Of a DNA stretch of 64,000 nt, positions 11,204 to 40,612 are shown piece after piece. Made by a program: the position numbers and the translations under genes. Numbering within the stretch: the stretch's first letter is position 1; each line of letters begins with the position of its first letter. The notes under the pieces were generated by a model. That model was given only the letters and a program-made list of their open reading frames with translations. It was not told the origin of the DNA and did no database searches. The DNA is taken from NCBI GenBank assembly GCA_018816555.1, contig JAHIVT010000145.1, positions 1 through 64,000 on the forward strand, given 5' to 3'. Origin of the DNA: Pseudomonadota bacterium. GTDB taxonomy: Bacteria; Desulfobacterota; Desulfobulbia; Desulfobulbales; SURF-16.

Positions 11204-11725
11204 ATGGGTTTGAAAACAGGAAAACAAGTTGGCCTAGCTGCATTAATCGCTATGGCAGCGCCATTGGTATTGCCATTCAGTGCTAATGGAGAGGTCTTTG
11301 AGCTAAGCAGCCTTGCTAACCTATATGAAGGGGTCAGCTTTGATCATGACATGCATATTGAGGCAGTTGCAGACGATTGCTCACTATGTCACCACCACAC
11401 AGCAGGTACTCCACCTGAAGAGCCGACATGCATTCCATGCCACAAAAACAGCCCCGAAGCTGATTCACCGGCATGCAGCAGTTGTCATCTCATTGAACCG
11501 TTTTCCTCTGCCAATCTGGCAATAAGTGAAGAAAATCCACTTCTTCATCACAAAATGAAACCAGGGCTGAAAGCTGCTTTTCACCAGAACTGCATGGGTT
11601 GTCACCAAGAAACTGGCGGACCAGTTGGTTGCCAGGATTGCCACGCCATGACCGAAAAGGGTGAGAAATTCTACAACACAGGACAATACGCACCAAAACC
11701 TCGCACGGAAACTGGCCATCATTAA
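11204..11725 (+). CDS. periplasmic pentahaem cytochrome c, class III-like
   Basis: 173 residues with strong AAAGGAG ribosome site. A signal peptide (about 1-29, ending SANG) directs export. Five CXXCH sites: CSLCH, CIPCH, CSSCH, CMGCH, CQDCH; HDMHI and LLHHKM supply likely distal His ligands as in cytochrome c3-type folds. It is the first gene of a three-gene operon with a four-cluster ferredoxin and an NrfD-type membrane subunit. By analogy with Hmc, Tmc, Nrf and the Geobacter Cbc complexes, it would exchange electrons between the membrane quinone pool and soluble periplasmic cytochromes. Which named complex it matches cannot be settled from sequence alone; a CbcSTU-like arrangement is my best guess. 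Confidence 0.88.
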   Translation: MGLKTGKQVGLAALIAMAAPLVLPFSANGEVFELSSLANLYEGVSFDHDMHIEAVADDCSLCHHHTAGTPPEEPTCIPCHKNSPEADSPACSSCHLIEPFSSANLAISEENPLLHHKMKPGLKAAFHQNCMGCHQETGGPVGCQDCHAMTEKGEKFYNTGQYAPKPRTETGHH

Positions 11726-11763
11726 AATTGACGTAAAATTGAGACCAATGCATAGGTGAAAAT

Positions 11764-12693
11764 ATGAAGAAATTGAACAGAAGAAATTTTATCAAGGGTA
11801 GTCTGGCAGGAGGCATCGCTACTGTCGCCGCCTCCGGTAAAGCCAAAAAAGCCTCAGCTGCCGGGGGGGATTTTGGTGGCTATCCGGAAAGCATGGGAGT
11901 TCTGGTGGACATGACCAAATGTATCGGTTGCCGCACATGTGAAGCAGCATGCAACAAGGAACAAGGCCTGCCTGAACCGGATAAACCCTTTGATGACTAC
12001 AGCGTATTTGATGAGCATCGCCACGGTGGATTGCCCCGCCGTACAACAGAAAAGGCTTACACTGTTGTAAACCGCTACAATGTTGAAGGACGTGATCACC
12101 CTCTTTTTAGAAAATTCCAATGCAATCACTGCAACGAACCTGCTTGCCTGACCTCCTGTTTTGTCAATGCCTACACAAAAACCCCTGAAGGGGCAGTTAT
12201 CTATAACCCCAAAGTATGTGTCGGCTGCCGAACATGCATGGTGGCCTGCCCCTTTTATGTGCCCGCATACAGTTTCACCAGTGCTATCAATCCGGTCGTT
12301 AAGAAATGTATCATGTGCTATGACACTCGGCTCAAATTCGGACGTCCCCCGGCATGTGTTGAATCTTGCCCACAAGGCGTAATGACTTTCGGTAAACGGA
12401 AAGACCTTATTGCTCTTGCCCATCAAAAGATTGAGGGAAACCCGGGGAAATACGTCGATCACCTGTATGGAGAACATGAAGTAGGCGGTACATCGTGGAT
12501 GTATCTCTCTGATGTGCCCTTTGACAAGATCGGCTTTGACATGCACCTCGGTAAGGAACCAATTATCAGTTACGTCAAGGATTTTCTTGCAATGGTCCCT
12601 ATGGTTCTCTGCATCTGGCCAGCATTGTTCACCGGCTTTCATCTCCTGTCCACCAGGAAGCAGGCAAATAAAGAAGAGTCGCCCAAGGCATAA
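11764..12693 (+). CDS. Tat-exported FeS subunit with four [4Fe-4S] motifs and a C-terminal membrane anchor (HybA/DsrO-like)
   Basis: 309 residues. N-terminal twin-arginine signal NRRNFIKGSLAGG. Four cubane motifs: CIGCRTCEAAC, CNHCNEPACLTSC, CVGCRTCMVAC and CIMC with a later CVESC. A hydrophobic helix near residues 278-297 (MVPMVLCIWPALFTGF) anchors the C-terminus, as in HybA. Ferredoxin subunits of this type wire a periplasmic redox partner to an NrfD/HybB quinone site. It follows the pentahaem cytochrome by 38 bp and precedes the membrane subunit by 12 bp, so the three form one complex. Known alternatives are hydrogenase, sulfite-reduction (DsrO) or formate systems, but no catalytic subunit is present here. 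Confidence 0.92.
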   Translation: MKKLNRRNFIKGSLAGGIATVAASGKAKKASAAGGDFGGYPESMGVLVDMTKCIGCRTCEAACNKEQGLPEPDKPFDDYSVFDEHRHGGLPRRTTEKAYTVVNRYNVEGRDHPLFRKFQCNHCNEPACLTSCFVNAYTKTPEGAVIYNPKVCVGCRTCMVACPFYVPAYSFTSAINPVVKKCIMCYDTRLKFGRPPACVESCPQGVMTFGKRKDLIALAHQKIEGNPGKYVDHLYGEHEVGGTSWMYLSDVPFDKIGFDMHLGKEPIISYVKDFLAMVPMVLCIWPALFTGFHLLSTRKQANKEESPKA

Positions 12694-12705
12694 CAGGAGG
12701 AAGAA

Positions 12706-13962
12706 ATGAAAAAATTAATAGCTGAAGGCTACCAGCCCATCGATACACTCATTAAACCAAACACCAACAATCCCTGGTCCTGGAAAGATAAACTGTTTCT
12801 CGGATTAACTCCAAAGGATTACATGAAGCAACTTTTTCGTAATCCCTTCAACTGGATACTTGCCATCATTTATGCAGTCGGAATTCCGATCCTTGTCGGA
12901 CGTTTCATATTCGGCCTCGGCTGGGCTACCCATGGTTCCTACGATTATCCTTGGGGGCTTTTTCTTGGCTGGGGTCTGTTTGTCATGGTTCCCTTATCCG
13001 CTTCCGGGTTTATGATGGGAACCACGGTCGAACTCTTCGGCAGAAAGGATTTCAAGCCGATTGAACGTCTCGGTCTGTTAAACGGACTGCTTGGCTACTT
13101 CTTCGCTGTTGTCTTTCTCCAGGTCGACCTCGGCCAACCATGGCGTCTGGTTTACCCAATGTTTGTTTCACTCGGGCCTGCAGCGGTTCTCTTTCTGGTG
13201 GCCTGGCATGTTGCCACCTATCTCTCCGTGCAGATTGCCGAATTAGTGCCGGCAACCAGCGAGTTAATGGGATGGGTAAAGCCCAAAAAATTCATCAAAA
13301 GCATCGTATTGGGACTGACCATCGCAGGTATCATACTTTCTACTCTGCATCAGGGCGCTTTGGGTGCACTCTTTACCTATGCGCCCGGCAAGGTCCACCC
13401 CCTCTGGTATTCGGCTGCCTTCCAATGGTTCCATTTTTTCTGCTCTTCCATATTCGGCGGCCTTTCCATGCTGATTGTTGTCAGCACCCTCAGCAAATGG
13501 TTCTTGCAATGGCGATGCGATGCCAATTTCAGCAAAAATCTCGACAAGATCACCTTGGGGATAGCCAAGGGTTGTTCTATGGCCCTCATCACCTATCTTG
13601 TTATCAAATTGGTTGCACTTGCCCATGATAATGAGTGGGGATATCTCCTTACAAGTTGGGGGCAGTTGTATATTTTTGAAATTATAGCGGGTTCCATCGT
13701 GCCACTCGTCTTGTTTACCATGGCTATCCGGACGGGCAGAGCAGGACTCGCACGTTTCGCCGCCTTTATTGCTGTATTCGGCATCGCTTTAAACAGGTTG
13801 AACACGGCCCTGATAGCCTTTAACTGGCATCTATATCAGGAAATTCCTCACTGGCGCGAGTTTGTTATCGCCATAACCGTTTATGCCACATATATCGTTG
13901 TTTACCGGGCAGTACTGTATCGTCTTCCTATTCTTTACACGTGGCAGGGGGATTCCAAATAA
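12706..13962 (+). CDS. NrfD/HybB-type integral membrane quinol oxidoreductase subunit
   Basis: 418 residues, strong AGGAGG site. About ten hydrophobic helices spread over the length, as in HybB and the longer NrfD proteins. Acidic and aromatic residues between helices are consistent with a quinone site near the periplasmic face. It shares an operon with the cytochrome and FeS subunits. The family passes electrons between menaquinol and periplasmic FeS or haem partners. No molybdopterin or hydrogenase subunit is near, so the complex probably works as a quinol:cytochrome c oxidoreductase. In sulfate or metal reducers such complexes may run in either direction. Confidence 0.92.
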   Translation: MKKLIAEGYQPIDTLIKPNTNNPWSWKDKLFLGLTPKDYMKQLFRNPFNWILAIIYAVGIPILVGRFIFGLGWATHGSYDYPWGLFLGWGLFVMVPLSASGFMMGTTVELFGRKDFKPIERLGLLNGLLGYFFAVVFLQVDLGQPWRLVYPMFVSLGPAAVLFLVAWHVATYLSVQIAELVPATSELMGWVKPKKFIKSIVLGLTIAGIILSTLHQGALGALFTYAPGKVHPLWYSAAFQWFHFFCSSIFGGLSMLIVVSTLSKWFLQWRCDANFSKNLDKITLGIAKGCSMALITYLVIKLVALAHDNEWGYLLTSWGQLYIFEIIAGSIVPLVLFTMAIRTGRAGLARFAAFIAVFGIALNRLNTALIAFNWHLYQEIPHWREFVIAITVYATYIVVYRAVLYRLPILYTWQGDSK

Positions 13963-17605: not shown

Positions 17606-18694
17606 TCAATCTTTGGTCGTATGACAAACAGCACAACCGTTAAATCCGCCCCCTGGCCACGATTTATAATCCCACCTCAATAAGCCCTGATACGGAGTAC
17701 CATGAGCCCGATGACATGAGAGGCACATGACAATAGCATCATCGGCAGCAGTATATACGGTGCTGTTTATTATTTCTGTATTACTTGCTGTGGCAACAGG
17801 CGAGATAACGCTGTAGACATTATTGGAGCCTGATCCACCGTTATATGACACATATTCATCTGTCGAAGCGGCCCTGCCCATATCAAAATCTGTGGGATGC
17901 CTCAGCCAGACACCGGCACCAAATGTGCCGGAAGAAATGTTGCCCGACCCCTGATGAAAGTCACCATGGCATTTGGCACAGAGACTGCTGATGGTGCTAT
18001 CATCGTTTTGCGTCTCCAGGGTCCTGTCAATTCCGTAATATTTGTTATGATGGCCGCTTGCCGGCCGATACTCATATTGCTGATCCTCCCATCCCTGCAC
18101 GGAGTAGAGAAAGCGATAACTTTTCGCCAATGTCGAGCCATCCTTCCATTTGGTCATATCATTGGCATGATGGGACTTCATCATGGACTTGATTTCACCG
18201 CTTACCGTACGGTCGCCATGACAACCACTGACTCCGGCACACGTAAGTTGCGAGCCTAACGCAGTTCCACCCGGGGGGATATTACCGAATCGAGTGTCAG
18301 GAATAGCGATACCGTTCACATTATGGCCGGTTGCCTCCAGTCCGCTGCTCACCCAGTAGAAATTCCCTCCAGCCAGAGTGGTGGTGGTACCCTCCGTGCC
18401 TGTGTTGCTGTATGTCGGTGGGCTGGTTTGCAGAACATATGGAGTGGTAAGACCTCCAACGCTATTGTTTCCCTGATGACAGCCAATACAGTTGGTATTG
18501 AGCAAGGCATCATTAGGTGTAAATGATAAATCAAGAGAACCATCTATCATATTCTGCGCAACAGCGGCACCTCCCTGACTGTTGTGCATGGTATGACAAT
18601 TGCCGCATTGCCCCGTAACCTTTGCATAGCACACAAGAGGAAACAGGATCAAAGGCAGCGCAACCAGTTTCTTGAGACCCTTTGTTGTCTTCAT
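17606..18694 (-). CDS. OmcS-like multihaem cytochrome, probable nanowire subunit (copy 1)
   Basis: 362 residues from ATG 18694 (AAGGGG six bases upstream; the GTG at 18700 is too close). Signal peptide ends near VCYA. Haem sites in order: CGNCH (in CGNCHTMHNSQ), CIGCH, CAGVSGCH (CX5CH, non-standard), CAKCH, CLSCH (in CLSCHRAHG), CAVCH near the C-terminus. The order and surrounding words (CHTMHNS, GHN, LRHP, CLSCHRAH, terminal CHxxKD) follow hexahaem OmcS of Geobacter, whose subunits stack into extracellular cytochrome filaments. Filament formation here is inference from that likeness. It is co-oriented with the multihaem, chaperone and NHL genes upstream, and 12 bp from the NHL gene. A paralogue lies at 30043. 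Confidence 0.85.
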   Translation of the reverse strand: MKTTKGLKKLVALPLILFPLVCYAKVTGQCGNCHTMHNSQGGAAVAQNMIDGSLDLSFTPNDALLNTNCIGCHQGNNSVGGLTTPYVLQTSPPTYSNTGTEGTTTTLAGGNFYWVSSGLEATGHNVNGIAIPDTRFGNIPPGGTALGSQLTCAGVSGCHGDRTVSGEIKSMMKSHHANDMTKWKDGSTLAKSYRFLYSVQGWEDQQYEYRPASGHHNKYYGIDRTLETQNDDSTISSLCAKCHGDFHQGSGNISSGTFGAGVWLRHPTDFDMGRAASTDEYVSYNGGSGSNNVYSVISPVATASNTEIINSTVYTAADDAIVMCLSCHRAHGTPYQGLLRWDYKSWPGGGFNGCAVCHTTKD

Positions 18695-18706
18695 GGTCAC
18701 CCCTTT

Positions 18707-19594
18707 TTAACGGCCAAATACTTCTACACGACCATTACCCTCTTCTACAACACAAAGACCTCCCCACGGGTCAAATAATATCTCGATCGGGAAATAAAGC
18801 TCTCCTCGCCCCCATCCCTTGGCAAGAAAGGTATATTTAAAACTTCCCTCTGTGTCAAAAACAGCAATAGCTGGTGCATGACGGTCAAGTACGTAAATAT
18901 TGCCGGCAGGGCCGATTGCCAGCGATACAGGAAATTCCAACGTCTGGCCGACATCAAAATTTTTGATCAATTTTCCATCGTGGTCAAATTGAACCACTTT
19001 TTTATCCAGTAGATCCAAGGCCCAGATACCATCATTTACGAGTTTAAAATCAACGATGCCAGAGGTGCACTCAGCACATGATATCCAGCTCTTCACAGTA
19101 AGGTCGCTATTCAGTAAAGCAATTTGTCCGGTTTCTTTATCAAGGATATAAAAAATACTATCCTTATAGTCGATACGATCCAAGACAAGCGTTCGCGAAC
19201 CATCCTTTATGATGTGCGTTAAAATTTCTTTCGCCTTGATATTAATACTTGTCAGACTGTTACGGCCTTTCTCCACTACCCATATGACATCGGCGTTATC
19301 ACGAACCATATCATAGGGAATCTGAAGTTTGCCTTCCGCGGCAAAGGCGAGAAGAAAATTCCCTTCCTGGGAATAAGAAAGCAATCTGTTGTTGCCGCTG
19401 TCAATCACATAATACCGTTGACGCTCGGCATCTATATACAGGGCAGTAGGCATGACAATGGCTTGACCGGATCCTGCGCCGTCAAGTGTTGCCTTCCAGG
19501 CCCAAGGTTCGGCAGCCAAAGAAGTTGTCGCGACCATAAAAATTGAGACTGCCAGCAATGCTGACTGGCTCAAAATATTTTTCACGTACTTCAT
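18707..19594 (-). CDS. periplasmic or secreted NHL-repeat beta-propeller
   Basis: 295 residues with AGGAG before the ATG and a signal peptide ending SLAA. About five to six NHL-like blades (VIDSGNNRLLSY, NIYVLDRHAPAIAVF, FPIEILFDPWGGLCVVE) fill the rest. It contains CAEC followed by Thr, a CXXC pair without the His needed for haem c, so perhaps a disulphide or a lost haem site. It lies 12 bp upstream of OmcS-like copy 1, so the two are almost certainly co-transcribed. NHL proteins next to omcS-type genes are known in Geobacter; their job (assembly, secretion or filament capping) is unproven. Confidence 0.88.
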   Translation of the reverse strand: MKYVKNILSQSALLAVSIFMVATTSLAAEPWAWKATLDGAGSGQAIVMPTALYIDAERQRYYVIDSGNNRLLSYSQEGNFLLAFAAEGKLQIPYDMVRDNADVIWVVEKGRNSLTSINIKAKEILTHIIKDGSRTLVLDRIDYKDSIFYILDKETGQIALLNSDLTVKSWISCAECTSGIVDFKLVNDGIWALDLLDKKVVQFDHDGKLIKNFDVGQTLEFPVSLAIGPAGNIYVLDRHAPAIAVFDTEGSFKYTFLAKGWGRGELYFPIEILFDPWGGLCVVEEGNGRVEVFGR

Positions 19595-19650
19595 AGAGAC
19601 TCCTTCCTAATCGGCATTCAGTAATCGAAACTGTTGAATCGATATTTCCA

Positions 19651-20826
19651 TCAGTATCTCTTATGACACTGAATACACAAATCTTTCGAACCACTGTATA
19701 TCAATTCATATTTAAAATCAGACCCCATGGGCAGATGACAGGTGACGCACGTCACCATCTGACCCGTGCGCACATCAACTACCTTTTCTCCAACCGGGTG
19801 AGTAAATTTCCCCTGGGTCTCGTGGCACCTGGTACAAATGGCATTGCCATCAGCTCTCAGCATGGCAATCCTGTTTGAACCATGCACCTCATGACAATTG
19901 ATGCATGTCCCTTCTTTCGCTTTTGGATGCCGGTAAAGTTTATTTTCATAACGGGCAATGGTGTCATTATGACAGCTACGACATACCTGTAACTGACTGC
20001 CTTTTAATAAATTCTTTTCATTGCCGGCATGGGGTGAATGACATGCCACACATTTATTTTCGCCCTTGCCCGTCAAATGGCTATGTCGAGCAAGCATACC
20101 GGTGGCAACCTTCTCATGACACCTGAGACAACTCTGCGTACTGCCCTGTATTTCTCCCTTGTCATGACACTCTTTACAACCTTGGGCAAAAGGAGCATGG
20201 AGGATGTCACGAACAATACCTTTCCTGCTGCTGCCGTGTGGATTGTGACACGAAAGACAATTTCTTAGAGTTCCGGGATAATTCAGATGGCCTTTCTGCA
20301 GGTCCTGGGATTTATGACAGGACAGGCAAACTTTATCAGGTTCATCCTTAAGCAATTCCCCAAAGACTGACTGATGAGGACGATGGCAGGAATAACATTG
20401 TCCCTGGGCATAAGGACTATGGGTATATTGAAATTTCTGCGGCAGTTTATCATGGCAGCCGAAACAGGTTGCGCTTAACTGCTCCTTGAGAAGCCCGCTT
20501 CTGGAGCTGGAATGAGGCACATGGCAGGCAAGGCATTGTCCGCTACGCACAGGCTGATGGACCATACCCTGCTTGAACGCATTCTCCTCCTTTGCATGAC
20601 AGGAAAAACAGAGTGCGGAGCCTTCCGCTTCCAGCAACCCCTTAAAATGCGCCACATGGGGATTATGACAAGCGCCGCATTGCCCCTTGGCAAGCGGCTG
20701 ATGCACAACCTTGCCGCTGAATGCTTCTTTTTTGTGACATTGAAAGCAGACTGTATCTGCTGCCGCTGCTATAGGGAAAGCTATGGCAAGCCAGGAAATG
20801 ACAAAGATTCGATAATAATTTAACAT
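19651..20826 (-). CDS. 16-haem periplasmic cytochrome c
   Basis: 391 residues from ATG 20826, which overlaps the upstream stop codon by one base (TAATG), with GGAGGG just before it: strong translational coupling. Signal peptide ends AAAA. Sixteen CXXCH sites, from CFQCH to CIQCH, spaced about 20-30 residues apart and separated by repeated GLLKE / HxPxAxGxCxxCHxPH units, the doubled CXXCH motif pattern. Together with the 26-haem lipoprotein just upstream this forms a 42-haem pair. Likely a periplasmic wire leading to the outer membrane (inference). Confidence 0.92.
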   Translation of the reverse strand: MLNYYRIFVISWLAIAFPIAAAADTVCFQCHKKEAFSGKVVHQPLAKGQCGACHNPHVAHFKGLLEAEGSALCFSCHAKEENAFKQGMVHQPVRSGQCLACHVPHSSSRSGLLKEQLSATCFGCHDKLPQKFQYTHSPYAQGQCYSCHRPHQSVFGELLKDEPDKVCLSCHKSQDLQKGHLNYPGTLRNCLSCHNPHGSSRKGIVRDILHAPFAQGCKECHDKGEIQGSTQSCLRCHEKVATGMLARHSHLTGKGENKCVACHSPHAGNEKNLLKGSQLQVCRSCHNDTIARYENKLYRHPKAKEGTCINCHEVHGSNRIAMLRADGNAICTRCHETQGKFTHPVGEKVVDVRTGQMVTCVTCHLPMGSDFKYELIYSGSKDLCIQCHKRY

Positions 20827-22778
20827 TATTTTCTGCCCTCCCCAGGATGACACGGACTGCATTTGCCTTCAGCAAACGGCTTATGACTTACCGGGAATAG
20901 TAATCCCTTTGTCGGGCCGCCATGAGGATCATGGCACTTCAGACAGGAATCATTCCCAGGACGAATTCCTTGGTGTACGGCAGTGAATCGTGTTTCGGTG
21001 AAATTATGACAGCGGGCGCAGAGCAACCCACCTTTTTCAAGCACAATTCCCTTATTCTTTGAGGCATGTGGGTCATGACACACCGTGCAATCCTTTGTCG
21101 CCGGATCATGGGCGACACCATCCCGCCAATACTTGGCTATCTGCTGATGGCAACTGAGACAAAGGGCCGGCTGTTTCTTTGAAAGATTTTTCTGGTATGC
21201 TGAGCCATGAGACAGATGGCAGGCAGAGCAATTCAAATCCTTCACCGGTCCATGAACCACCGGGGAATCGCTGATCACTTTTTCCATCCCCCCATGGCAG
21301 CTAAGACAAAGCTTTCCTGGATTTCCCGTCAGGTTGTAAACATAATCTCCGGCATGCGGAGAATGACATTTTTCGCATTCTTTTTTAGCAAAAGGATCAT
21401 GGGCAATGAAATTTTCCTTTTGTTTTTCCAGAACCGAATGGCAGGAAAGACAAAGCCTTCCACCGACCGTAGTTTCCTTTAACAGATTCTTTCTTTCACC
21501 TTGGTGGGGCTCATGGCACCGACTGCAGTCACCATTGGCAAAAGGAGTGTGGAGACTGAAACTGCCCATCGCCCTGGCACTCTGTTCATGACAGGAAAGG
21601 CATATAACCTTCTCATTCTTGACCAGTAATTTCCTCTCTCCAGCTTCATGTGGATTGTGACAACCCTGACATTTGCTCTCTTTTGCCGGAGGATGGGAAA
21701 CAGTGCCTTCACTGTAGAGTTTTTTCTCATGGCATTTATAACAAATCTTCGAAGACTCAAGGGCCAGCAGAGCCACCCGTTGCGAACTGTGGCCCATATG
21801 GCATGAAAGACACTGCCCCTTGCTGTATGGATCATGGCTGCTTTTGATCTTAGTCTTGTCTGCACCGGTGTGACAACTTACACATACCTTTTCCGGTGGC
21901 ATGGCAAGCATAAAACTATTTTCACTGGCATGGGATGCGTGACACTTAAGGCAAAGCCCCTCTGTGTAAGGCTTATGCTGGCTGGTCATTTTCGTGTTGC
22001 TGCGAGGATGACATGTTAAACAGCCTGAGTTAGCATTGCCTTTAACCTGCAGTTTCCCATCCCCACCAATCTGATGACAACCGGCACAATTACCCTCCAT
22101 AACCGGCTTATGCACGATGGTCTTTAATAAATGAAGGCCATCGGAACTGTGTGGGCTGTGGCAGAGAACGCACTTTCCTTGCACCGGATAATCCCGGTGA
22201 CTTTTACGAAAAACGGCCTCATTATTCTTATGACAGGCAAGACAGAGACTGTCTTCATCCTGTTTGAGGAGGGATTTCACATCTGATCCATGGTTTACAT
22301 GACAACTGGCACATCCCTCTTTAACAGGGGCATGCACATTCGCCCGGGAAAATTGCTTCCTGTCATGACAGGTAAAACAGATCTCAGGGCTGGAGGATTT
22401 CAGCAGTCCCTTATTCGTGCTGTTATGTGCCGCGTGGCAGGTCAGACAGAGGCCTTGGGCAACAGGCTCATGTACGGAGTTCTTCTTGCTTTCCTCTTGA
22501 ATCTGCTGATGACAGACAAAACACTGTTCAGGCGGATTCTGCCGAAGATACGTGCCGCCAATCATTCCATGATGAAGATGACAAGCCTCACAATTGTCTT
22601 CTTGCACAGGTTTATGAACGACCCCCTGTTTGAACGCGGCCGCCATATCGGCGTGACATTCGACGCAGCTTTTCCGGGGTTGACGAACCGGCTGGGTGCT
22701 GACGCAGGAAACAAGCAAACTGAGGATGAACGCCAGTCCAAAAAATAACTTGATTTTATTTCCCGACATGAAGATCAC
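20826..22778 (-). CDS. 26-haem cytochrome c lipoprotein
   Basis: 650 residues from GTG 22778 (AAGGAG four bases upstream; ATG 22769 is the alternative). Lipobox LVSC near residue 25 makes it a lipoprotein. I count 26 CXXCH motifs from CVECH to the C-terminal CSPCH, with no other recognisable domain. Repeated units of about 45-50 residues contain two haems each (HKPVxEGxCxxCHxxH...LLKxxxxxxCxxCH). It overlaps the chaperone gene upstream by 23 bp and is coupled to the 16-haem gene downstream. Size, haem count and lipid anchor suggest a periplasm-spanning or outer-membrane-bound conduit element. Large proteins of this type also occur in omcS-type loci of Geobacter (from memory). Confidence 0.93.
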   Translation of the reverse strand: MIFMSGNKIKLFFGLAFILSLLVSCVSTQPVRQPRKSCVECHADMAAAFKQGVVHKPVQEDNCEACHLHHGMIGGTYLRQNPPEQCFVCHQQIQEESKKNSVHEPVAQGLCLTCHAAHNSTNKGLLKSSSPEICFTCHDRKQFSRANVHAPVKEGCASCHVNHGSDVKSLLKQDEDSLCLACHKNNEAVFRKSHRDYPVQGKCVLCHSPHSSDGLHLLKTIVHKPVMEGNCAGCHQIGGDGKLQVKGNANSGCLTCHPRSNTKMTSQHKPYTEGLCLKCHASHASENSFMLAMPPEKVCVSCHTGADKTKIKSSHDPYSKGQCLSCHMGHSSQRVALLALESSKICYKCHEKKLYSEGTVSHPPAKESKCQGCHNPHEAGERKLLVKNEKVICLSCHEQSARAMGSFSLHTPFANGDCSRCHEPHQGERKNLLKETTVGGRLCLSCHSVLEKQKENFIAHDPFAKKECEKCHSPHAGDYVYNLTGNPGKLCLSCHGGMEKVISDSPVVHGPVKDLNCSACHLSHGSAYQKNLSKKQPALCLSCHQQIAKYWRDGVAHDPATKDCTVCHDPHASKNKGIVLEKGGLLCARCHNFTETRFTAVHQGIRPGNDSCLKCHDPHGGPTKGLLFPVSHKPFAEGKCSPCHPGEGRK

Positions 22779-24384
22779 CGAGCTCCTTTTTAATTTTCTC
22801 CCAGGCGCGGTTGTTTATTTCCATAACCGATCTTTCCTTCAGAGCGGCAAGATACTCATTGCGTACCTTGGAAAATTTTTCCTCATCAACCAAGCTGGCA
22901 ACTTTATCGTGTACATGATCAAAGGGCATGGGGGTGGCTGGAGTCCGTTTTATCAATTTTATTATTGTATGATGCCCTTTCACAACAAAGGGATTACTTA
23001 CTTCTCCAATTACCAGACTATTTACAATCTTCTGAACAATTGGATCAAGATATCTGAATTGCATGTTCTGTACCGGCACTTCTCCCTCATAATAGTGGGA
23101 CGCCACCTCAAGGAGATCAGCTCCTCTTTCCATTTCCTTATACATTTTGTTAATAAGGTTTTCTTCATCCTCCACAACGGCAATGGAGACCATTTCGGGT
23201 TGCGAGAACCGATCGAGATGTTCCTGATAATACTTTTCAATATCCTGCTCACTCACTTGAACTTGGGGCCTGAAAAGCCTTTTTTCAAGTTCCTTTATCA
23301 GGCGGTGCTGGGTATAAAAAAGGTAAAAAGGCTTTAAAGGTTCTTTTCCTTCATAATGCTCATCAAGGGCTCCTCTTGTGGTAAGAGTCTGGGCAAGCAC
23401 CCCATCAACCAGCCTTTGTTTCAGTTTATCTCCCTTTTCAACCTCAAAACCATACTGCTTACGGAACTGCAGTTCCTTGTTGACGAGATCCAGAAACACT
23501 CTCACCGTATAACTTCCATTGTCCAGGGTAATAAGTGTTTGATCAAGGAGTTGTTCATTGGAAGAATCCAGATTCAGGGCATCAAAAACCTGCTGGTTTA
23601 TTTTGACCTGATATTTTTTTTTCAACTGCTCGACAAGTCCGACAGTAAGTTCCTGCTCCTTTTTCTCCCTGATCTCATTGGTGATCTTCGGTTTCAGCAA
23701 CTCAAAATCCTCAGCATCATATCCTTTCTGTGCCACAAGACGAATGATAACAAAACCTTTACTCCAGTGGAAAGGTTCGCACATCGTTCCAGGAGCCAAA
23801 CCATCAACTACAGGACGCCACTCCTGCTGCAGTTGACTGGTTCTTAACCATTTTTCATCATAATAAACGGAATTCTTGTCAACAACCCTCGCATCAGCTG
23901 CGAACTTGGCAAAATCCAGGTTCCCTTCTTTAATTTGTTCATAAGATTTTTTCGCCACCCCTTCGTCATTAAAATAAAGAATCTGCAGCTGCAGACGGGG
24001 TAGATATTTTTCCTCATAACGATCTTTCAGTTCCCTATCTGATATTTTAACCTGGGAATTAATCTTATCTCCCTTATAGAGAAGCAACGTGCGGGCTTTC
24101 AGGAATATATCAATCTTATGACGGTACTCCGGTTCATTATAAAGCTCCATTTTTTCAGCTTCCTGAACCAACAAATGCCAATCAACAAAAGGATCTACTG
24201 ATTCAGGGAAAGGGGTGTCCTTTTCTTTCCAGTTTAACCACCAGTTTTTAAAATCGTCAGTTGTAAAATTGCTGTCATTTATGGTTACAAGTTTCTCAGC
24301 TCCCCAAGGCCACGCATGGCCGTCTCCGGCAATGGCCAATATCCATAAAAAAACAACCCCGAATATAAATCCTATTTTCCGCAT
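22756..24384 (-). CDS. periplasmic peptidyl-prolyl cis-trans isomerase with two parvulin-like domains (SurA/PpiD-like)
   Basis: 542 residues from ATG 24384 (AAGGA upstream). Signal peptide ends GHAW. An N-terminal helical chaperone part (about 20-125) is followed by a first parvulin-like domain (about 130-240, LQILYFNDEG...FAKFA), a linker with helical segments, and a second parvulin domain (about 395-505, VSIAVVEDEE...ADLLEVASHYYEGE). The C-terminus is helical. It helps fold exported proteins, possibly the beta-barrel or the multihaem proteins. Its position within the operon, overlapping both neighbours, indicates a dedicated rather than housekeeping role. The two parvulin domains are divergent, so isomerase activity is uncertain. 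Confidence 0.85.
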   Translation of the reverse strand: MRKIGFIFGVVFLWILAIAGDGHAWPWGAEKLVTINDSNFTTDDFKNWWLNWKEKDTPFPESVDPFVDWHLLVQEAEKMELYNEPEYRHKIDIFLKARTLLLYKGDKINSQVKISDRELKDRYEEKYLPRLQLQILYFNDEGVAKKSYEQIKEGNLDFAKFAADARVVDKNSVYYDEKWLRTSQLQQEWRPVVDGLAPGTMCEPFHWSKGFVIIRLVAQKGYDAEDFELLKPKITNEIREKKEQELTVGLVEQLKKKYQVKINQQVFDALNLDSSNEQLLDQTLITLDNGSYTVRVFLDLVNKELQFRKQYGFEVEKGDKLKQRLVDGVLAQTLTTRGALDEHYEGKEPLKPFYLFYTQHRLIKELEKRLFRPQVQVSEQDIEKYYQEHLDRFSQPEMVSIAVVEDEENLINKMYKEMERGADLLEVASHYYEGEVPVQNMQFRYLDPIVQKIVNSLVIGEVSNPFVVKGHHTIIKLIKRTPATPMPFDHVHDKVASLVDEEKFSKVRNEYLAALKERSVMEINNRAWEKIKKELGDLHVGK

Positions 24385-24980
24385 TGCTTCATTCCTTCGG
24401 CGAACCATTCTTCGATTATCTCATCCGCTATGATCCGACTGAGTTGCGTCACGGTATTAACAAGTCCAAAATGCATGACCTTACGATAATCCGCACCTTC
24501 CCGCCTGTGATAGGTAGACCACATCGTTTGGCCGCTTTTGGCGTCATAAACCTGCAATGTTAAGTCTAAAACAGGATTTACATAGTTATCACCCATTTTT
24601 TCTTCCATTTCCGTTATTCTGCCGCTGATTACAAGCTGAACATCAAGTCGGCTGCCAAGCACTCTGATTTGCTCGATACTGGGAAGTTGATTTGGATATA
24701 TGCGCAATTCGCGATAAATGTTCTGAACATCTCCCTCAGAGGCAACTTCAATACCGGCAATGCGGGTCAACTCTGCAGCAAAAACACGTTGCATGATAAG
24801 ATTGCCCTGTTCAAAACGGCTGCCGTTAATAAAGGGAAGAAGAGCCACCGAACAGATACTCTCACCTTCATAAACATTTTTTTTTTCGAGAGAAAGCCTC
24901 GATGAAGTACAGGAACTGACTCCCAAAAGAAGAGCGACAAGTAAAAATATGAAGAAATATCTGAATTGCGCAAAATTCAT
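24372..24980 (-). CDS. outer-membrane lipoprotein, CsgG/LpoB-like fold
   Basis: 202 residues. Lipobox VSSC at about 21-24. The mature part starts with VALLPFINGS and contains GSRLDVQLVISGRI, DLTLQVYDAKSGQTMWS and a C-terminal helix: the pattern of the CsgG/FlgT/LpoB-like anticodon-binding-fold family (conserved VAVLPF, then G..L.A..V..G.V, then ..D..TG...W). Members form outer-membrane export pores or support periplasmic assemblies. It is the third CsgG-like gene in this operon, directly before the parvulin gene (13-bp overlap). Function inferred only at fold level. Confidence 0.75.
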   Translation of the reverse strand: MNFAQFRYFFIFLLVALLLGVSSCTSSRLSLEKKNVYEGESICSVALLPFINGSRFEQGNLIMQRVFAAELTRIAGIEVASEGDVQNIYRELRIYPNQLPSIEQIRVLGSRLDVQLVISGRITEMEEKMGDNYVNPVLDLTLQVYDAKSGQTMWSTYHRREGADYRKVMHFGLVNTVTQLSRIIADEIIEEWFAEGMKQCGK

Positions 24981-24999
24981 AGTAATTGATCTGCTCGCT

Positions 25000-25113
25000 A
25001 AAATTTACTGCCTCGTTACAACCTTATCGACAGCCGTACGGTGCATGATATGTTCCTGATTTATCGTCACAAAAATTCGGCGCCTGGACTTTTTACGATG
25101 TCATCAAAATTCA
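25000..25113 (+). repeat. dispersed intergenic repeat, copy 2 of 3
   Basis: AAAATTtACTGCCTCGT start, CGACAGCCGTACGGTGCATGATA core and GGACTTTTTACGA..TCATCAAAATTC end. The right edge runs into the 3' end of the minus-strand gene at 25104 and supplies its last two codons and stop (GAATTTTGA on the minus strand). A 12-bp inverted fragment of the left end (GTTACGAGGCA) lies at about 26632-26643. Confidence 0.85.
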
Positions 25114-26579
25114 GGAACCCATTCTTGCTGCTTCGCCGGTTCAGGTTGATCATCCTCAATATTAACTAATTGCATAAGGTCATCGATTTTTTTCTGCACC
25201 TTATTGCCTAATACATCCTTCATACAGACAATAGCTTCAAGTTTCCTTGAATCTGACGGTGAGGGAAATGGAATAAGAATGTCCACTGGAAGATCAGCCC
25301 CCTGACTCTGCAACAACACTTCACCATCCGAATACAAAATTTCGGCACTCCAGTAATCCACGGGAATTTCGTCCTCAGAATCCAGGGTTACGATGAGACT
25401 GTCATTACCTACTACTGCGTTTATCACCGGAATTGGCGGAGTGCTCTTCAAAAACACTGTCTGTGTCGACACAGTGGCATTATTTGCTCTGTCCCAGACC
25501 TTTAACACAATTTCGTAAATGCCGTCTTCAGCCTTATGACCATCCGCTCGTTGTCCTTTCCAGACGAAACGATTAGGTAAAGAACCTTTATTCTCCGTGC
25601 CTGCCATGACCTGCCCCCCCATATTCTGTATAAACAGCGACCAATGGGAAAGCGGCTCAGGATCCTGCCAAATAGGGGTAATAGGCAACCTGCCATTAAA
25701 TGCAATAAAATTATTCACCTTTTTTCCGACAACTTTCAAACTTAATTTCGGTGAATGAGTATCAATCTGATAATTTCCGACAAAGAAAACAAGAGTTCTC
25801 CCCGATTGACATCTTAAAACAAGACTGACGGGCAGAATTCCTTCATGGTCAGGAGCCGACCAGAAAACAGTATAAGAGTTGGGGGATACCTGCACCATGT
25901 CGAGATAATTATCTTCCCCAATCCTAAGCAGGACTTGGGAAATCGCCTCACCCCCTGCCGGCGGTCGGATTTTAACCGAACAACTCACCTCATCACCCGG
26001 TTTCACATGCTGGGAAGATAGTCGTGAGGTTTCAACAACTATGCATTGATTTTGTCCTGTAACTTCCAGAACATCAGGCCAGCTGCTCAGAAGTTGTTGT
26101 GCAAGAACGGGAAATAAATCGTCGATGCTTTCAGGTTCATCAATAGCAAGAAAATTAGAGATGTCAGCTTTGCTCATTCCGCCGACTTCGGTCCATACTG
26201 TCCGTGCATCACTGGCACGTACCAGAGTCAGCACCATCCCGAAAGCTGCCAGAGGTAATTCCTGCCGCTGGCTGACTGTCCCGAAAAGAATAAAGTCTGC
26301 ACCGAGATCATCCCGGACTTGATAAATATGACTTGTGCCAAGAAAACCCAGCCATCGGATACGATTTCTGGACATAAACGAAATAACTCTATCCGTCGGA
26401 ATGACTTCAATCCCTTTTTCCTGCAAATTTTGTTGTAAAAAATCTGTGAGAGTGAAATTAACTCCATTACGTCCCTCACTGAGGTCTTCCACAGGGAAAA
26501 CAGCCACGGTGACAGCCTGAGCATATGAGGCAATCAGTGTGGTCATCGTCAGAAGTGTTATAATGAGGAACCTTTTCAT
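25104..26579 (-). CDS. exported protein with CsgG-like N-terminal domain and Ig/FlgD-like C-terminal beta domains
   Basis: 491 residues from ATG 26579; the signal peptide (MKRFLIITLLTMTTLIAS, cleaved near AQA) supports this start over a TTG at 26609. Residues about 22-180 resemble CsgG/FlgO-type domains (VTVAVFPVEDLS, then LGADFILFGTVSQ). Two beta-sandwich regions follow, including an RFVWKGQRADGHKAEDGIYEI segment typical of FlgD-Ig modules that carry the WDG..G..V..G.Y pattern. It has a C-terminal acidic tail. No lipobox. It probably sits in the periplasm as part of an outer-membrane assembly with the neighbouring lipoproteins. The 3' end is made by the dispersed repeat. Confidence 0.75.
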   Translation of the reverse strand: MKRFLIITLLTMTTLIASYAQAVTVAVFPVEDLSEGRNGVNFTLTDFLQQNLQEKGIEVIPTDRVISFMSRNRIRWLGFLGTSHIYQVRDDLGADFILFGTVSQRQELPLAAFGMVLTLVRASDARTVWTEVGGMSKADISNFLAIDEPESIDDLFPVLAQQLLSSWPDVLEVTGQNQCIVVETSRLSSQHVKPGDEVSCSVKIRPPAGGEAISQVLLRIGEDNYLDMVQVSPNSYTVFWSAPDHEGILPVSLVLRCQSGRTLVFFVGNYQIDTHSPKLSLKVVGKKVNNFIAFNGRLPITPIWQDPEPLSHWSLFIQNMGGQVMAGTENKGSLPNRFVWKGQRADGHKAEDGIYEIVLKVWDRANNATVSTQTVFLKSTPPIPVINAVVGNDSLIVTLDSEDEIPVDYWSAEILYSDGEVLLQSQGADLPVDILIPFPSPSDSRKLEAIVCMKDVLGNKVQKKIDDLMQLVNIEDDQPEPAKQQEWVPEF

Positions 26580-26685
26580 AATAATCAAAAAACTATAATT
26601 TTTCTGCAACTCGCAATAAAATTTACCTACAGGTTACGAGGCATACGTAAATAATATCACGATCCCTCACTCAATCACATTTTTT

Positions 26686-27630
26686 TTAAGGCTCAACAGT
26701 CGTCGATTCACCAGGTGCTGGTTCCACAACTGGAGCAGGCGGTTCAACCACTACTGCCGCAGGCTCAGCTGTCTCTATTTCTACGTCCACGGCAGGTTCA
26801 GCGGGAGCAGGCTCTTCCGGAACTGCCGGTTCACCCTCTATGCCGACTGGTTCAGCAGGTGAAGGTTCAACCTCTTCAGTTACAGGCTCAGCTGTTACCG
26901 ATTCTGCCGCTGCCGGTTCTGCTCCCACAACTGGCTCAGCAGGAGCAGACTCTTCAGAAACTGCCGGCTCAACAACATCAGTCGTGACAGATACAGGTTT
27001 AACCACCACAGGTTTAACAGCCACGGGTTCAGCATCCACTGGTACAGGCACGTTCTGCCTCTCAGGAATAGTAGAGAGAAGTCCCTTGGCAAGTTTAACG
27101 GTAACCTTATATGCATCATCAGGTGTTATGCCAAAGAGTCGCCCCACAATGGAATCTCCTGCATAATGTCCGCTGGCCTGCCATAATACTATACCAGACT
27201 TTATCTCGATAAGTCGCAAGGTCAGGCTCATTTCAGGCACAATCACCGAACCAATCCTTTTATCACCTGCCATGTCGACAGAACCAATCATAATGGACTG
27301 AACATTGAGTCGCTGTCCAAGTCTGCTGAGCATGAGTTGGCTCACAGGAGATCCCGGGTCAATTGCTTCTTCATGCAAAACACTGTCAACAATCCCTTTA
27401 TCCACCACGTCAAAGATATTCATGGCCAGAATCTGGGTATTGATCACATCCCTTGCCAGCTCAGCAGCATATTTCTGTTCCGTATTGTTTTCCAGAGGAA
27501 GAACACTGATCCTGTTGACAAAGTCAAGTGTCACATCTTCTCTCATAAAAGAAACCGTCGTTTTTCCAGAACATCCGGACAGCATGGAAAAACACATCAA
27601 CGTCAGTATGGAACATATTATTCTTTTCAT
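26686..27630 (-). CDS. CsgG-like lipoprotein with a long Pro/Glu/Ala/Val-rich C-terminal tail
   Basis: 314 residues, AAGGATT upstream. Lipobox LSGC at about 17-20. Residues about 40-190 form a CsgG-like domain (ISVLPLENNTEQKYAAELA, LNVQSIMIGSV, LTLRLIEIKSGIVLWQASG). The last ~115 residues are a low-complexity tail of repeated EP, AEP, VEP and PAP units, which is likely extended and rod-like. Such tails often cross the periplasm or peptidoglycan. Base composition in the tail follows the repeats, not foreign DNA. It is the second gene of the outer-membrane block, after the beta-barrel. A role in anchoring the conduit to the cell wall is speculation. Confidence 0.78.
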   Translation of the reverse strand: MKRIICSILTLMCFSMLSGCSGKTTVSFMREDVTLDFVNRISVLPLENNTEQKYAAELARDVINTQILAMNIFDVVDKGIVDSVLHEEAIDPGSPVSQLMLSRLGQRLNVQSIMIGSVDMAGDKRIGSVIVPEMSLTLRLIEIKSGIVLWQASGHYAGDSIVGRLFGITPDDAYKVTVKLAKGLLSTIPERQNVPVPVDAEPVAVKPVVVKPVSVTTDVVEPAVSEESAPAEPVVGAEPAAAESVTAEPVTEEVEPSPAEPVGIEGEPAVPEEPAPAEPAVDVEIETAEPAAVVVEPPAPVVEPAPGESTTVEP

Positions 27631-27684
27631 GAACAGAATCCTTGGAAAATTAAATTAAAACGTTTATCATTTAAGTTTCAAACA

Positions 27685-29727
27685 TCAGTAACGAATGACA
27701 AACTGTCCTCCGTACGCAAATTCAGTTTCATCCTCATCAATATAGCTACAATAGGCATGCATTGAAAAAATCCGATTTATAGTCCAGTTGTAAGTTGCAC
27801 TATAATCATCACTACTTTCACTATGATTATAACTCAAATTTAACTGAGTTTTGTATGTAGGTGCAACGGTCACAGTGAGATAATTTGTAATACCAGGAGA
27901 TTCATCGCTTTGCCACTCCTGGCCGGCACCCACCTGCATGGAAAGGATATCGGAAGGCCTCCAGCTTATGCCTATCAAACTGGCAGCGTTCCAGGTTGAG
28001 GTTTCAGCGTTTGAAGTGTTGTATCTTTCTGTGAGATCCACCGTCATTGCGGGATTCAGCCGTGCGGTAAATTTCAAGTTGGAATTAAAATCCTGCGAGG
28101 TCGCATCTGTCTCTTCATCACGATCGGTGATGTAAGCAAGATCAAGATTTGAGGTCAAATCAGGGAATATCAATGCGGTCAAATACATGTTGTAATTATA
28201 GCTGGTGTCTGTTTTCACATCCGCTTCATATGTATCGCTCCGGGTGACGCCATAATTCATATCAAGGGTAGGGAGCAACAGCGATGAAAAACTGAGCGAG
28301 TAATAACGTGTTTTTTCTTCATCTTCGTCCCCCACCTGATCTTTCGACTCGCTGGCGCTCAGGGTTGAAGAAAATGAGAGGGTGGGTGACCATATGAGAC
28401 TTGTTGAATTATAGGTCCGACTGATATCATCTCCGACTGCTGTTTCACCGTCCTCCAAAACGAGGTTATACGTCCAGTTGAGACCAGGGGTGATCAGGAA
28501 ACGAAGTGATGTGTCTCCCAAATAGCTGTAATAAGTTGTGTTGCTGGTAATTTTCTGTCCCGGATCACCAGTAACCCTGGTAAAGGCTTCGACCCGGCTA
28601 ATGGTGAAATCAGCGTCAGTGGGAATATGGTCTTCAACCAGCATGATAAATTTAGCTGTTACTTGCGGAATTTCAACCTCAAAGCGCTGCTGGGTACTGT
28701 CGTATATTGTGGAGGTTGCGGGTCCCTGCAAAGTCCAGTCATTTCCATTGGAGCTGGAATAGACTGTCCACTGGAAAAGGTTGAGATTTCCTGCTTCCGT
28801 TTCCCCCAGGTCGGTTTCCGTATAAATATAGAACACATTGACCGATTGTGGTGATAATTGAAAAATGGCGATATTATAACGATCATGAGGAGCAAGATGA
28901 GGAACTGTATTCGGAAAACTCGTTAAGTCATTCCATTCAGGATCATCATCAGGATCAGGCGAAGCCTGTCCACCACGACTTTCTAAGCTGTGAATGGGAA
29001 CCAGGGCGCTGCCGCCAGGATCAATTTTCGTTTCAAAATCCTGGGTGTTGTTGGCGTATTGTCCCAGAAAGCTAACATTTAAACGATCCTGCCAGAAAGC
29101 TTTTTCAGTTGTCAGACGGGCGAGTTGATTGGTTGACTTATCATTACTGTTGGCAACAAAATCATCAGACTCATTAAGGTCTATATTGTAATAGACTTTA
29201 GCGAGCAATAAATCCCAGTCAATATTGAAACCGCTGAAGGTGTTCTCTGCGTCAATCCGGCTTGGACTCTCATCATCTTTGGTGCTGCTTGCTCCATAAT
29301 TAAGCTGCACCATCGGGCAAAGTTCTTTCTGCCAGTTACTGATCCACCTGCCCTGCCAGTTACTGCTGGTCAAATCGGATCTTTCGGAGTTTCGCTGCTT
29401 ATTCCACGAGCCGGAAAGGTCAAAATAAAAGACATCGTTATTAATCTGGTAATCAAGAGAGGGAGTGATTGTCTCTGTTTCATGCCCTCCATCGAAAGTT
29501 GTCGTATAGCGGACAGTTTCGTCTATACTCATCACAGGAGTCAGCGGCTGGTCAAATTCAAGAGTAGTGCTCTGACTGACCTGAGATTCACTTCCTTCAT
29601 CTTCAGTATGCTGATATGTCCCGGTGCCGGTAAATGACAGCGGTTTTCCCAAAACGACATCGTCGCAGAGGAAAAACATCAGCAACAGGGCATAGATAAT
29701 GCCGTTATATTTTATCCCCCCTCGCAT
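27685..29727 (-). CDS. large outer-membrane beta-barrel with a discoidin-like insert, candidate conduit porin
   Basis: 680 residues from ATG 29727 (ribosome site weak). Signal peptide ends VVLG. The mature chain is almost wholly alternating hydrophobic/polar strands of 10-14 residues (LTTEKAFWQDRLNVSFLGQY, TVDLTERYNTSN, LNLSYNHSESSDDYSATYNW) and ends FVIRY, close to the terminal aromatic of outer-membrane proteins. In the middle (about 285-390) a non-barrel region resembles an F5/8-type discoidin domain (NLFQWTVYSSSNGNDWTLQG, FEVEIPQVTAKFIML). Length and composition are like MtrB/PioB-class porins, which hold a multihaem cytochrome across the membrane, although I see no clear homology. It heads the minus-strand block that includes the 26-haem lipoprotein. 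Confidence 0.78.
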   Translation of the reverse strand: MRGGIKYNGIIYALLLMFFLCDDVVLGKPLSFTGTGTYQHTEDEGSESQVSQSTTLEFDQPLTPVMSIDETVRYTTTFDGGHETETITPSLDYQINNDVFYFDLSGSWNKQRNSERSDLTSSNWQGRWISNWQKELCPMVQLNYGASSTKDDESPSRIDAENTFSGFNIDWDLLLAKVYYNIDLNESDDFVANSNDKSTNQLARLTTEKAFWQDRLNVSFLGQYANNTQDFETKIDPGGSALVPIHSLESRGGQASPDPDDDPEWNDLTSFPNTVPHLAPHDRYNIAIFQLSPQSVNVFYIYTETDLGETEAGNLNLFQWTVYSSSNGNDWTLQGPATSTIYDSTQQRFEVEIPQVTAKFIMLVEDHIPTDADFTISRVEAFTRVTGDPGQKITSNTTYYSYLGDTSLRFLITPGLNWTYNLVLEDGETAVGDDISRTYNSTSLIWSPTLSFSSTLSASESKDQVGDEDEEKTRYYSLSFSSLLLPTLDMNYGVTRSDTYEADVKTDTSYNYNMYLTALIFPDLTSNLDLAYITDRDEETDATSQDFNSNLKFTARLNPAMTVDLTERYNTSNAETSTWNAASLIGISWRPSDILSMQVGAGQEWQSDESPGITNYLTVTVAPTYKTQLNLSYNHSESSDDYSATYNWTINRIFSMHAYCSYIDEDETEFAYGGQFVIRY

Positions 29728-30042
29728 CACTCGTTACATTCCACATGTAATTAATAGTTGAAAACTGCCATTTTAATTCACCCCTTGGAATTCCCTTCCC
29801 ATACTTGACAAAAAGACATGAACACAAAGATTATGCAACAGTTAATTCACGAAAAAGCAAAATAAAACAAACACCTACTTCATTAATTTGTTAAAAAATA
29901 AATAGTACACATTCATGGACAAAAAAAATTCCGGCCTGGAAACGATTAGGAGGGAAGGGGTATCGTTTCCTGGCCGGAATTTATCTCATGCGATATTCTT
30001 TTCTTTTACTTTAACATAAAAAACACTTATACAACCTGTTCA
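29728..30042. other. intergenic region between OmcS-like copy 2 and the beta-barrel gene
   Basis: 315 bp, A/T-rich. It contains the terminator at 29921-29983. No -24/-12 promoter or clear sigma70 pair was found on the minus strand, so the downstream block may depend on an activator or on partial read-through. Confidence 0.5.
29921..29983 (-). terminator. strong intrinsic terminator after OmcS-like copy 2
   Basis: A 20-bp stem (AATTCCGGCC/GGAAACGAT arms with one mismatch) around a ~15-base loop, followed on the minus strand by a run of eight T. It separates the abundant OmcS-like gene from the beta-barrel operon. Confidence 0.9.
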
Positions 30043-31161
30043 TCAACCAGCATCTTTGGTGGTATGGCATGAAAAGCAACCACAGGCGGGATCATCACTA
30101 CCTGCTTCGCAGGTATCATAATCCCAGCGCAAAAGATCTGCATATGGAGAACCATGGGCACGATGACAGGAAATACAGTTGACTATTGCATCGCCCGCCG
30201 TTGCATTGACGTCGCTTACCGGGGCTGCAAGAGCTGCTGTGCGGTTAGTAGCAACGGGAACGAGGGGCAGATATGTCCCATCAGTGCCGTAATTCGAATA
30301 TTCTGTGCCGGGAAGATTATTCATGTCATAATCGGTTGGATGCCTGAGCCAGGCTGAACCAGCGGTGTTATCTGTGTCGGCGCCTTTATCATCAGCAGCA
30401 CCTGAGTGAAAATCACCATGGCATTCCGCACAGAGGTAGTTAATGCTTTTTGCCCCTTCGGACAGGGCGGCAGGAGGCGTATCGTTTGTTCTGTCGTAGC
30501 CGTAATATTGATTATGATCGGTTGCACTATTTGTATATTCCCAATCGCTGTCCTCATAACCGATAATACCGTAAAGAAAACGAAAACTCTTGGCAGCTGT
30601 TGAACCATCAATAGCTGAGTCGTCAGCGTGATGGGAGCCTGAGATTGCGGTAAAATCATCAACCGAGCCGCCGTCGTCATGAATACCATGGCAACCATTC
30701 GTGCCCGCGCAGGTCAGCTGCACAGCCCATGTCGCACCGCCGCCATTCAGCTCGGTATTGGCATTAAAAGCGGGATTCCAGCCTGGGGGAGTTTCTCCCA
30801 AAACAAGATCAGCTGAATTTAAACCAACAACGTTATGACCTGTCGTGTCGTCCCCTGCCACCACCCAGCGAAAGTTGCCGCCTGCAAGGGTATTGGTGCC
30901 ATAGGTAGCTGTTGTAGAGAAAACATAGGGGATATTCCCCCCACTGTTAGCTCCGGTATGACAGCCGACACAACCGCCTGACCTGTTGACCAAAGCACCT
31001 TGTGGGCCGGCTGCTACAATAGCTACTCCATCCTGACTGTTATGCATTGTATGACAGTCAACACAGGGCCCTTGGGCCTTCGCACCAACCAATTGCGGGG
31101 CCATTAAGGCAAAACCAATCAGGCCCAAACCTAGCGAAAATACTTTCATTTTTTTAATCAT
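30043..31161 (-). CDS. OmcS-like multihaem cytochrome, probable nanowire subunit (copy 2)
   Basis: 372 residues, GGAGGG before the ATG. Signal peptide ends LVGA. Haem sites: CVDCH (CVDCHTMHNSQ), CVGCH, CAGTNGCH (CX5CH), CAECH, CISCH (CISCHRAHG), CFSCH (CFSCHTTKDAG end). GHNV, WLRHPTDYDM and LLRWDY blocks match copy 1 at 17606, and the six-haem order follows Geobacter OmcS. It has its own transcription unit: a strong terminator downstream and a 549-bp leader region with two RegA-like boxes. This suggests a highly expressed, redox-controlled structural cytochrome; filament assembly is inferred. It differs from copy 1 by longer loops and more Asp and Asn residues. Confidence 0.87.
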   Translation of the reverse strand: MIKKMKVFSLGLGLIGFALMAPQLVGAKAQGPCVDCHTMHNSQDGVAIVAAGPQGALVNRSGGCVGCHTGANSGGNIPYVFSTTATYGTNTLAGGNFRWVVAGDDTTGHNVVGLNSADLVLGETPPGWNPAFNANTELNGGGATWAVQLTCAGTNGCHGIHDDGGSVDDFTAISGSHHADDSAIDGSTAAKSFRFLYGIIGYEDSDWEYTNSATDHNQYYGYDRTNDTPPAALSEGAKSINYLCAECHGDFHSGAADDKGADTDNTAGSAWLRHPTDYDMNNLPGTEYSNYGTDGTYLPLVPVATNRTAALAAPVSDVNATAGDAIVNCISCHRAHGSPYADLLRWDYDTCEAGSDDPACGCFSCHTTKDAG

Positions 31162-36976: not shown

Positions 36977-37088
36977 AATCCACTTAGCACCGATATGAAA
37001 TAGAATCATTTTTCAAAAATCCGGCATGACAAAAAATTGAACCCAGCCAACTGAAAAAGGTACAAAAAGTCGCATTGTCCATGGGACT

Positions 37089-39174: not shown

Positions 39175-39293
39175 TTCTCATTTATTAATTTTCTCTGCGG
39201 GAATTATTATTAAAAAAATTATCCTGTTAAGTCAATTAGTATGTGCTTACTTCACGACTCTCAATCTTTTCAGAACTTGACAAGGGTTACTTC

Positions 39294-40598: not shown

Positions 40599-40612
40599 GT
40601 CAAAGGATCATT

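Follow-up and report, generated by a model that had tools for sequence, protein, structure and literature searches.

A 64,000-nucleotide stretch of a Desulfobulbales genome (assembly GCA_018816555.1, contig JAHIVT010000145.1), hereafter called the window, carries adjacent minus-strand genes for a 26-haem and a 16-haem doubled-CXXCH cytochrome (genes I and J). We incline to the view that the two proteins are the halves of a single 42-haem envelope relay, joined 1:1 and end to end on the periplasmic side, within a gene cluster for an OmcS-type filament. The pair is a member of an already described cytochrome-nanowire gene cluster, the haem pair and the block having been known before. The evidence that carries our reading is the existence of natural proteins in which both cytochromes form one chain of 42 haems. 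These chains say that the pair is one physical unit and turn a vague co-operon into a testable single object, which bears on how electrons cross the periplasm to cytochrome filaments.

The 26 CXXCH motifs lie in a 650-residue open reading frame (ORF) [20826..22778 (-)], and 16 further motifs in one of 403 residues [19651..20862 (-)]. Shuffling the two ORFs at constant composition gave on average 0.35 and 0.21 motifs, with a maximum of 3, and the counts are therefore not due to chance. Gene I is read from ATG 22769, with GTG 22778 as a possible alternative. The native start of gene J is best read as the overlapping ATG at 20826, giving 391 residues; the start of the 403-residue ORF lies 12 codons upstream of it, within the 26-haem gene. 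The junction between the genes reads GGGGAGGGCAGAAAATAATG, and the total of 42 haems and the TAATG overlap preceded by a ribosome site (GGGGAGG), both noted in the first-pass annotation, are confirmed. So is the doubled-CXXCH build of the proteins, which match PF09699 over 12 and 7 stretches respectively. At 2.6 kDa of peptide per haem both fit the “peptide-minimized” cytochrome class (PMC7096707). The N-termini of the products of genes H, I, J and K (signal peptides) were read by eye only; that of gene J resembles a Sec-type signal peptide, and the 26-haem protein has a lipobox, LVSC, at residues 22–25. The first-pass annotation did not mention that the two genes are part of a block of ten [17606..31161, minus strand] which, from 31161 down to 17606, has the order OmcS-like, D, E, F, G, H, I, J, K, OmcS-like.

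A tree of 69 26-haem proteins contains two strongly supported clades which share some 33–38% identity: clade A, holding the window protein, and clade B, holding a second copy from the same genome, the Desulfuromonadales and Anaeromyxobacter. At least nine distinct single-chain ORFs with 42 CXXCH motifs were found, in nine genomes, and they may be under-counted since only part of the genome-search matches was examined in full. They comprise one protein of clade B (G002, 1070 residues), a single family of clade A (G251–G256, 1012–1185 residues) and two proteins that branch more deeply, on the side of clade B (G405 and G216, 1084 and 1061 residues). In all nine the 26-haem part comes first and the 16-haem part second. 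The fused proteins have a single N-terminal signal, the second signal peptide being gone, and their junction contains no hydrophobic stretch. From haem 26 to haem 27 the chain advances by 29 residues in G002, 16–22 in G251–G256 and 23 in G405 and G216, that is, 16–29 residues, which lies inside the range of ordinary within-chain steps (14–31). In G251, G252 and G255 the fused gene lies within the complete block, where it takes the place of I and J. Sequencing errors at a stop codon were rejected as the origin of these forms, given the missing second signal peptide, the nine genomes and the spacing in register. The long open frames at L102, L103, L111, L112, L114, L129, L134, L139, L140, L142–L146 and L148 consist of two ORFs split by a stop and were not counted as fused. 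Two genomes, G405 (L141/L131) and G216 (L147/L115), carry a separate, split 26/16-haem pair in addition to a fused 42-haem protein.

A single fusion event for all 42-haem forms is rejected by the approximately unbiased (AU) test [p 2.2e-6]. Since a fused clade of L022, L141 and L147 is not rejected [p 0.127], only two independent events can be called secure on the present trees; a later tree, with a minimum of four changes between fused and split forms, suggests up to four. For that tree 19 rows were added to the earlier 69, of which 10, near-duplicates for the most part, were dropped. These event counts take fusion, not the later splitting of an ancestral 42-haem chain, as the direction of change. 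Among titles and abstract openings of the top-ranked literature on 42-haem, osc/OscH and 26/16-haem proteins we found no fused 26+16-haem protein, and the words “fused” and “fusion” are absent from the text of Skennerton 2017 (PMC5539420).

The near-invariance of the haem numbers points in the same direction. The census took the ORF richest in CXXCH from each non-duplicate locus, excluding the window pair, 34 duplicates and 7 ORFs truncated at an end; this left 93 intact ORFs, from which four with 10 or 12 motifs were set aside as other proteins. The remaining 89 have 26 motifs (78 ORFs), 25 (2) or 42 (9), so that 78 of the 80 intact unfused proteins carry 26 haems. The partners of these 80 include five cut by an end and two without sequence; among the 73 intact ones, 71 have 16 motifs and two have 15. 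Motif-to-motif spacings are almost identical inside each clade, and all 26 distal histidine columns are conserved in the 69-row alignment, one row being gapped in two of them. Because of the 42-haem fusions and these numbers, contact and 1:1 pairing of the two proteins are supported, as is a shared starting compartment. The fused forms, having one N-terminal signal only, argue against a location of the two in separate, non-touching compartments, which would have spoken against the first-pass annotation.

Near relatives of the window pair include a record named Desulfurivibrio sp. (83%). The second, diverged copy of the block in the same genome (G000; contig C35, locus L037) is about 35% identical and contains OmcS-like, D, G, H, 26-haem, 16-haem and K genes. 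A search of plasmids returned one weak match, with 27% identity, from Photobacterium. Contig C18 of G000 holds another large doubled-CXXCH cluster (L051) with adjoining 12- and 11-haem proteins, which by haem count resembles the OmcX-related operon of Skennerton 2017.

Two traits on which the first-pass annotation leaned, the gene overlap and the lipid anchor, prove to be unevenly distributed. All 31 clade A pairs show a stop/start overlap of 1 or 4 nucleotides and have a Shine-Dalgarno-like sequence in the coding region of the 26-haem protein, as against an overlap in 7 and a Shine-Dalgarno-like sequence in 8 of 39 pairs in clade B. Coupled translation, to judge from these motifs, is a clade A trait. 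The overlap had been taken to imply a fixed stoichiometry. The 1:1 pairing is supported by the 31 overlaps and the fusions; the overlap by itself is rejected as sufficient proof, because genes G/H and H/I of the same operon overlap as well. Most clade A proteins have the lipobox, among them five of the six in the fused family (f15); it is lost in the L062/L064 group of that clade and mostly absent from clade B, where a plain signal peptide prevails. The scan behind these statements was crude, and its clade labels come from the first tree, hence L131–L140, on the clade B side in the later tree, were labelled “A/C”. A lipid-anchored wire rising from the outer membrane, as first proposed, agrees with the LVSC motif of the window protein and is not a general feature, since the anchor is clade-limited; we reject the anchor as a defining character.

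AlphaFold2 models of the 26- and 16-haem proteins have mean predicted local distance difference test (pLDDT) scores of 85.9 and 77.6, the latter with a weak C-terminus. For each of them the best PDB match is chain A in the Mtr complex 6r2q, by profile [E 1.4e-28], Foldseek [E 3.6e-7 and 1.6e-9] and VIA-align [Z 9.0]; of the relatives available, 36 of 45 entered structure alignment A3 and 33 of 41 entered A4. The chain is labelled “cystathionine beta-synthase” in the PDB sequence file, under an entry entitled “Structure of the Mtr complex”, and we take it to be MtrA, which is consistent with its haem motifs. MtrA, which is not known to carry a lipid anchor, is the nearest solved sequence and fold for both window proteins. 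Against NCBIfam TIGR03508 (DmsE/MtrA-type; cut-off 192.2 bits) the 26-haem protein scores 376.9 bits, summed over seven stretches, and the 16-haem protein 162.6 bits, below the cut-off. The family is one of ten-haem proteins, and the pair with its 26 and 16 motifs falls outside it. We would therefore not file the proteins as members of TIGR03508 and describe them, from sequence and models, as a putative extended MtrA-like haem wire. MtrA has 10 haems (PMC7096707), in contrast to the 26 and 16 found here. According to the same source haem number and length are linearly related, some 27 haems being required for a periplasm of 200 Å, and its scaling predicts lengths of about 190 Å (26 haems) and 310 Å (42 haems).

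Close to the C-terminus of the 16-haem protein one distal-ligand column, otherwise conserved as histidine, differs between the clades. All 27 clade B rows have histidine there. In the 35 rows of clade A the column holds methionine (23), histidine (6) or lysine (6), the lysine rows being the f15 fused family. The window protein has methionine there, in the C-terminal sequence CHLPMGSDFKY, and no alternative histidine nearby; some other clade A sequences have a histidine a few residues further on. We infer His/Met ligation at this position, and the switch to methionine or lysine may set the potential of a terminal haem.

Skennerton 2017 (PMC5539420) describes a four-gene core operon of a beta-propeller, a 16-haem protein, a 26-haem protein and a peptidyl-prolyl isomerase, of which Desulfurivibrio alkaliphilus has two copies, and predicts the products, with signal peptides and without transmembrane helices, to be periplasmic. 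The same four genes, with the same haem numbers and adjacency, are found in the window in the order K-J-I-H. The passages of that paper which treat the operon contain nothing on coupled translation, a clade-limited lipid anchor or 42-haem fusions, features which the clade and relatives of the window pair possess. The second system to compare is the osc (OmcS-companion) operon of Geobacter sulfurreducens, GSU2500–GSU2493, in which OscI is GSU2495 and OscJ GSU2494, both listed as periplasmic (PMC13194489); this eight-gene block has been linked to OmcS maturation and secretion (PMC12977616). The window is like it in having eight genes, D to K, beside OmcS-like cytochromes; both blocks include an isomerase gene (OscH) and, next to the gene for a 26-haem protein, one for another cytochrome, the gene correspondence being by position and description only. 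It is unlike it in belonging to the diverged clade A and in having OmcS-like genes at both ends. A genetic study, Shen 2025 (cited in PMC12977616 and PMC13194489), reportedly found the osc operon to be needed for the folding, secretion or morphology of OmcS filaments.

In the arrangement that we favour, the C-terminus of the 26-haem protein would dock end to end with the N-terminus of the 16-haem protein, 1:1, producing an unbroken chain of 42 haems, most of them bis-histidine, in an MtrA-like fold. As part of an OmcS-type cytochrome-filament cluster this relay would most likely carry electrons on the periplasmic side between a pool in the inner membrane or the periplasm and the base of an OmcS-like filament, which it may feed or be fed by. 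In clade A a lipid would anchor the 26-haem half, probably in the outer membrane, and translation of the two genes would be coupled. A role in iron respiration in a relative fits the report that an OmcS homologue of D. alkaliphilus is raised more than 100-fold in iron-dependent growth (PMC12545173).

Several points weigh against such a relay. A chain of 310 Å exceeds a periplasm of 200 Å, and fusion shows that the two halves are compatible without proving that they touch when split. In cultured relatives the cytochromes were not expressed during metal respiration (Skennerton 2017, PMC5539420). A strain of G. sulfurreducens kept on an anode for 17 years has a frameshift in oscJ (PMC13194489), and the 16-haem part can therefore be dispensable there. 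The importance of OmcS filaments in vivo is itself disputed (PMC11077965). A bolder version, which we put forward tentatively and consider doubtful, would make the wire of some 31 nm a bridge of fixed length, its length being held constant for that reason: the 26-haem half (about 19 nm, against a periplasm of about 20 nm) would span the periplasm, and the 16-haem half would continue to or through a membrane to the OmcS-type filament. Were this so, the envelope would use wired electron transfer instead of diffusing shuttles, and the far-end change from histidine to methionine, or to lysine in one fused family, would tune the terminal haem.

The main rival, on balance an unlikely one, is a porin-cytochrome conduit of the OetABI type, in which an outer-membrane barrel is threaded by one cytochrome or by both, the lipoprotein lies on the outer face, and electrons pass through the outer membrane, not across the periplasm. 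OetABI, from syntrophic sulfate reducers, is the name given to the Skennerton conduit by Murali 2023 (PMC10553843), who propose a periplasmic OetA, a porin OetI and an extracellular lipoprotein OetB. That the closest fold and profile belong to MtrA, a barrel-inserted cytochrome, suits this scheme, and the 681-residue secreted product of gene D, in the same block, is a candidate for a barrel of the MtrB/PioB type. This protein is barrel-like by eye; it matched no Pfam family. Furthermore, the lipobox is missing in many relatives, and the number of haems in the chain is about four times that in MtrA. The periplasmic listing of OscI and OscJ and the prediction of Skennerton 2017, both cited above, also speak against it. 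OetABI would place the cytochromes on separate sides of the outer membrane, and the fused forms make that harder unless the chain threads the barrel.

We think it improbable that the pair is mainly a scaffold on which the OmcS-like filament matures or is assembled, and not an electron relay. Its genes do share a block with OscH and OscEFG, for which roles in folding and secretion have been proposed (PMC13194489), and that eight-gene block is the one tied to maturation and secretion (PMC12977616); however, the conserved distal histidines suit a working haem chain and would be costly in a scaffold. That the two are independent periplasmic electron stores which share an operon without contact is very hard to credit, since, ordinary as overlapping genes are in this operon and mostly missing as the overlap is in clade B, the recurrence of natural fusions whose junctions stay in register and the almost constant 26/16 pairing stand against it.

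The order of genes D to K with OmcS-like cytochromes recurs in relatives, strongly in clade A and with weaker homologues in clade B. The features of the block are collected in the table. A phmmer search of PDB with the OmcS-like protein nearer gene D gave nothing at E<=0.001.

Features of the cytochrome block in the window, with the evidence for each
Feature	Position	Strand	Evidence
OmcS-like cytochrome	17606..18700	(-)	5 CXXCH + CAGVSGCH; PDB OmcS 6ef8, E 1.4e-7
Gene K, NHL-repeat beta-propeller	18707..19594	(-)	PF01436, E 1.6e-9
Gene J, 16-haem doubled-CXXCH cytochrome	19651..20826	(-)	16 CXXCH; PF09699, E 9e-77; OscJ/GSU2494-like by position
Coupling site GGGGAGG...TAATG	20824..20843	(-)	Stop/start overlap; Shine-Dalgarno within 3' end of 26-haem gene
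Gene I, 26-haem doubled-CXXCH lipoprotein cytochrome	20826..22769	(-)	26 CXXCH; PF09699, E 1.2e-124; LVSC; OscI/GSU2495-like by haem count and gene order
Gene H, PPIC-type peptidyl-prolyl isomerase	22756..24408	(-)	PF13145, E 4.4e-24
Gene G, small lipoprotein-like, FlgT_M-like region	24372..24980	(-)	PF16539, E 5.2e-6, under family cut-off; synteny
Gene F, secreted protein	25104..26609	(-)	Weak FlgD_ig match, E 0.0013, under cut-off; synteny
Gene E, LpoB-like lipoprotein	26686..27630	(-)	PF13036, E 2.3e-6; synteny
Gene D, 681-residue secreted protein	27685..29730	(-)	C-terminal aromatic residue; barrel-like sequence by eye; synteny
Second OmcS-like cytochrome	30043..31161	(-)	5 CXXCH + CAGTNGCH; layout and N-terminal motif by eye; synteny

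Elsewhere in the window, a second cluster beside the main block [35687-38258 (-) and 39243-41809 (+)] encodes an NHL propeller and 10-, 8- and 5-haem doubled-CXXCH proteins. Two adjoining 12-haem cytochromes, c3/c7-like, follow at 42627-43445 and 43557-44477 (+); locus L146 (G259) has a similar adjoining 12/12-haem pair beside its 26/16-haem pair. At 11204-13962 (+) there are consecutive genes for a five-haem cytochrome and for what we take to be a twin-arginine (Tat)-type iron-sulfur protein and an NrfD-like membrane protein. The last of these had no match in Pfam; together the three genes possibly specify a quinone-linked electron complex.

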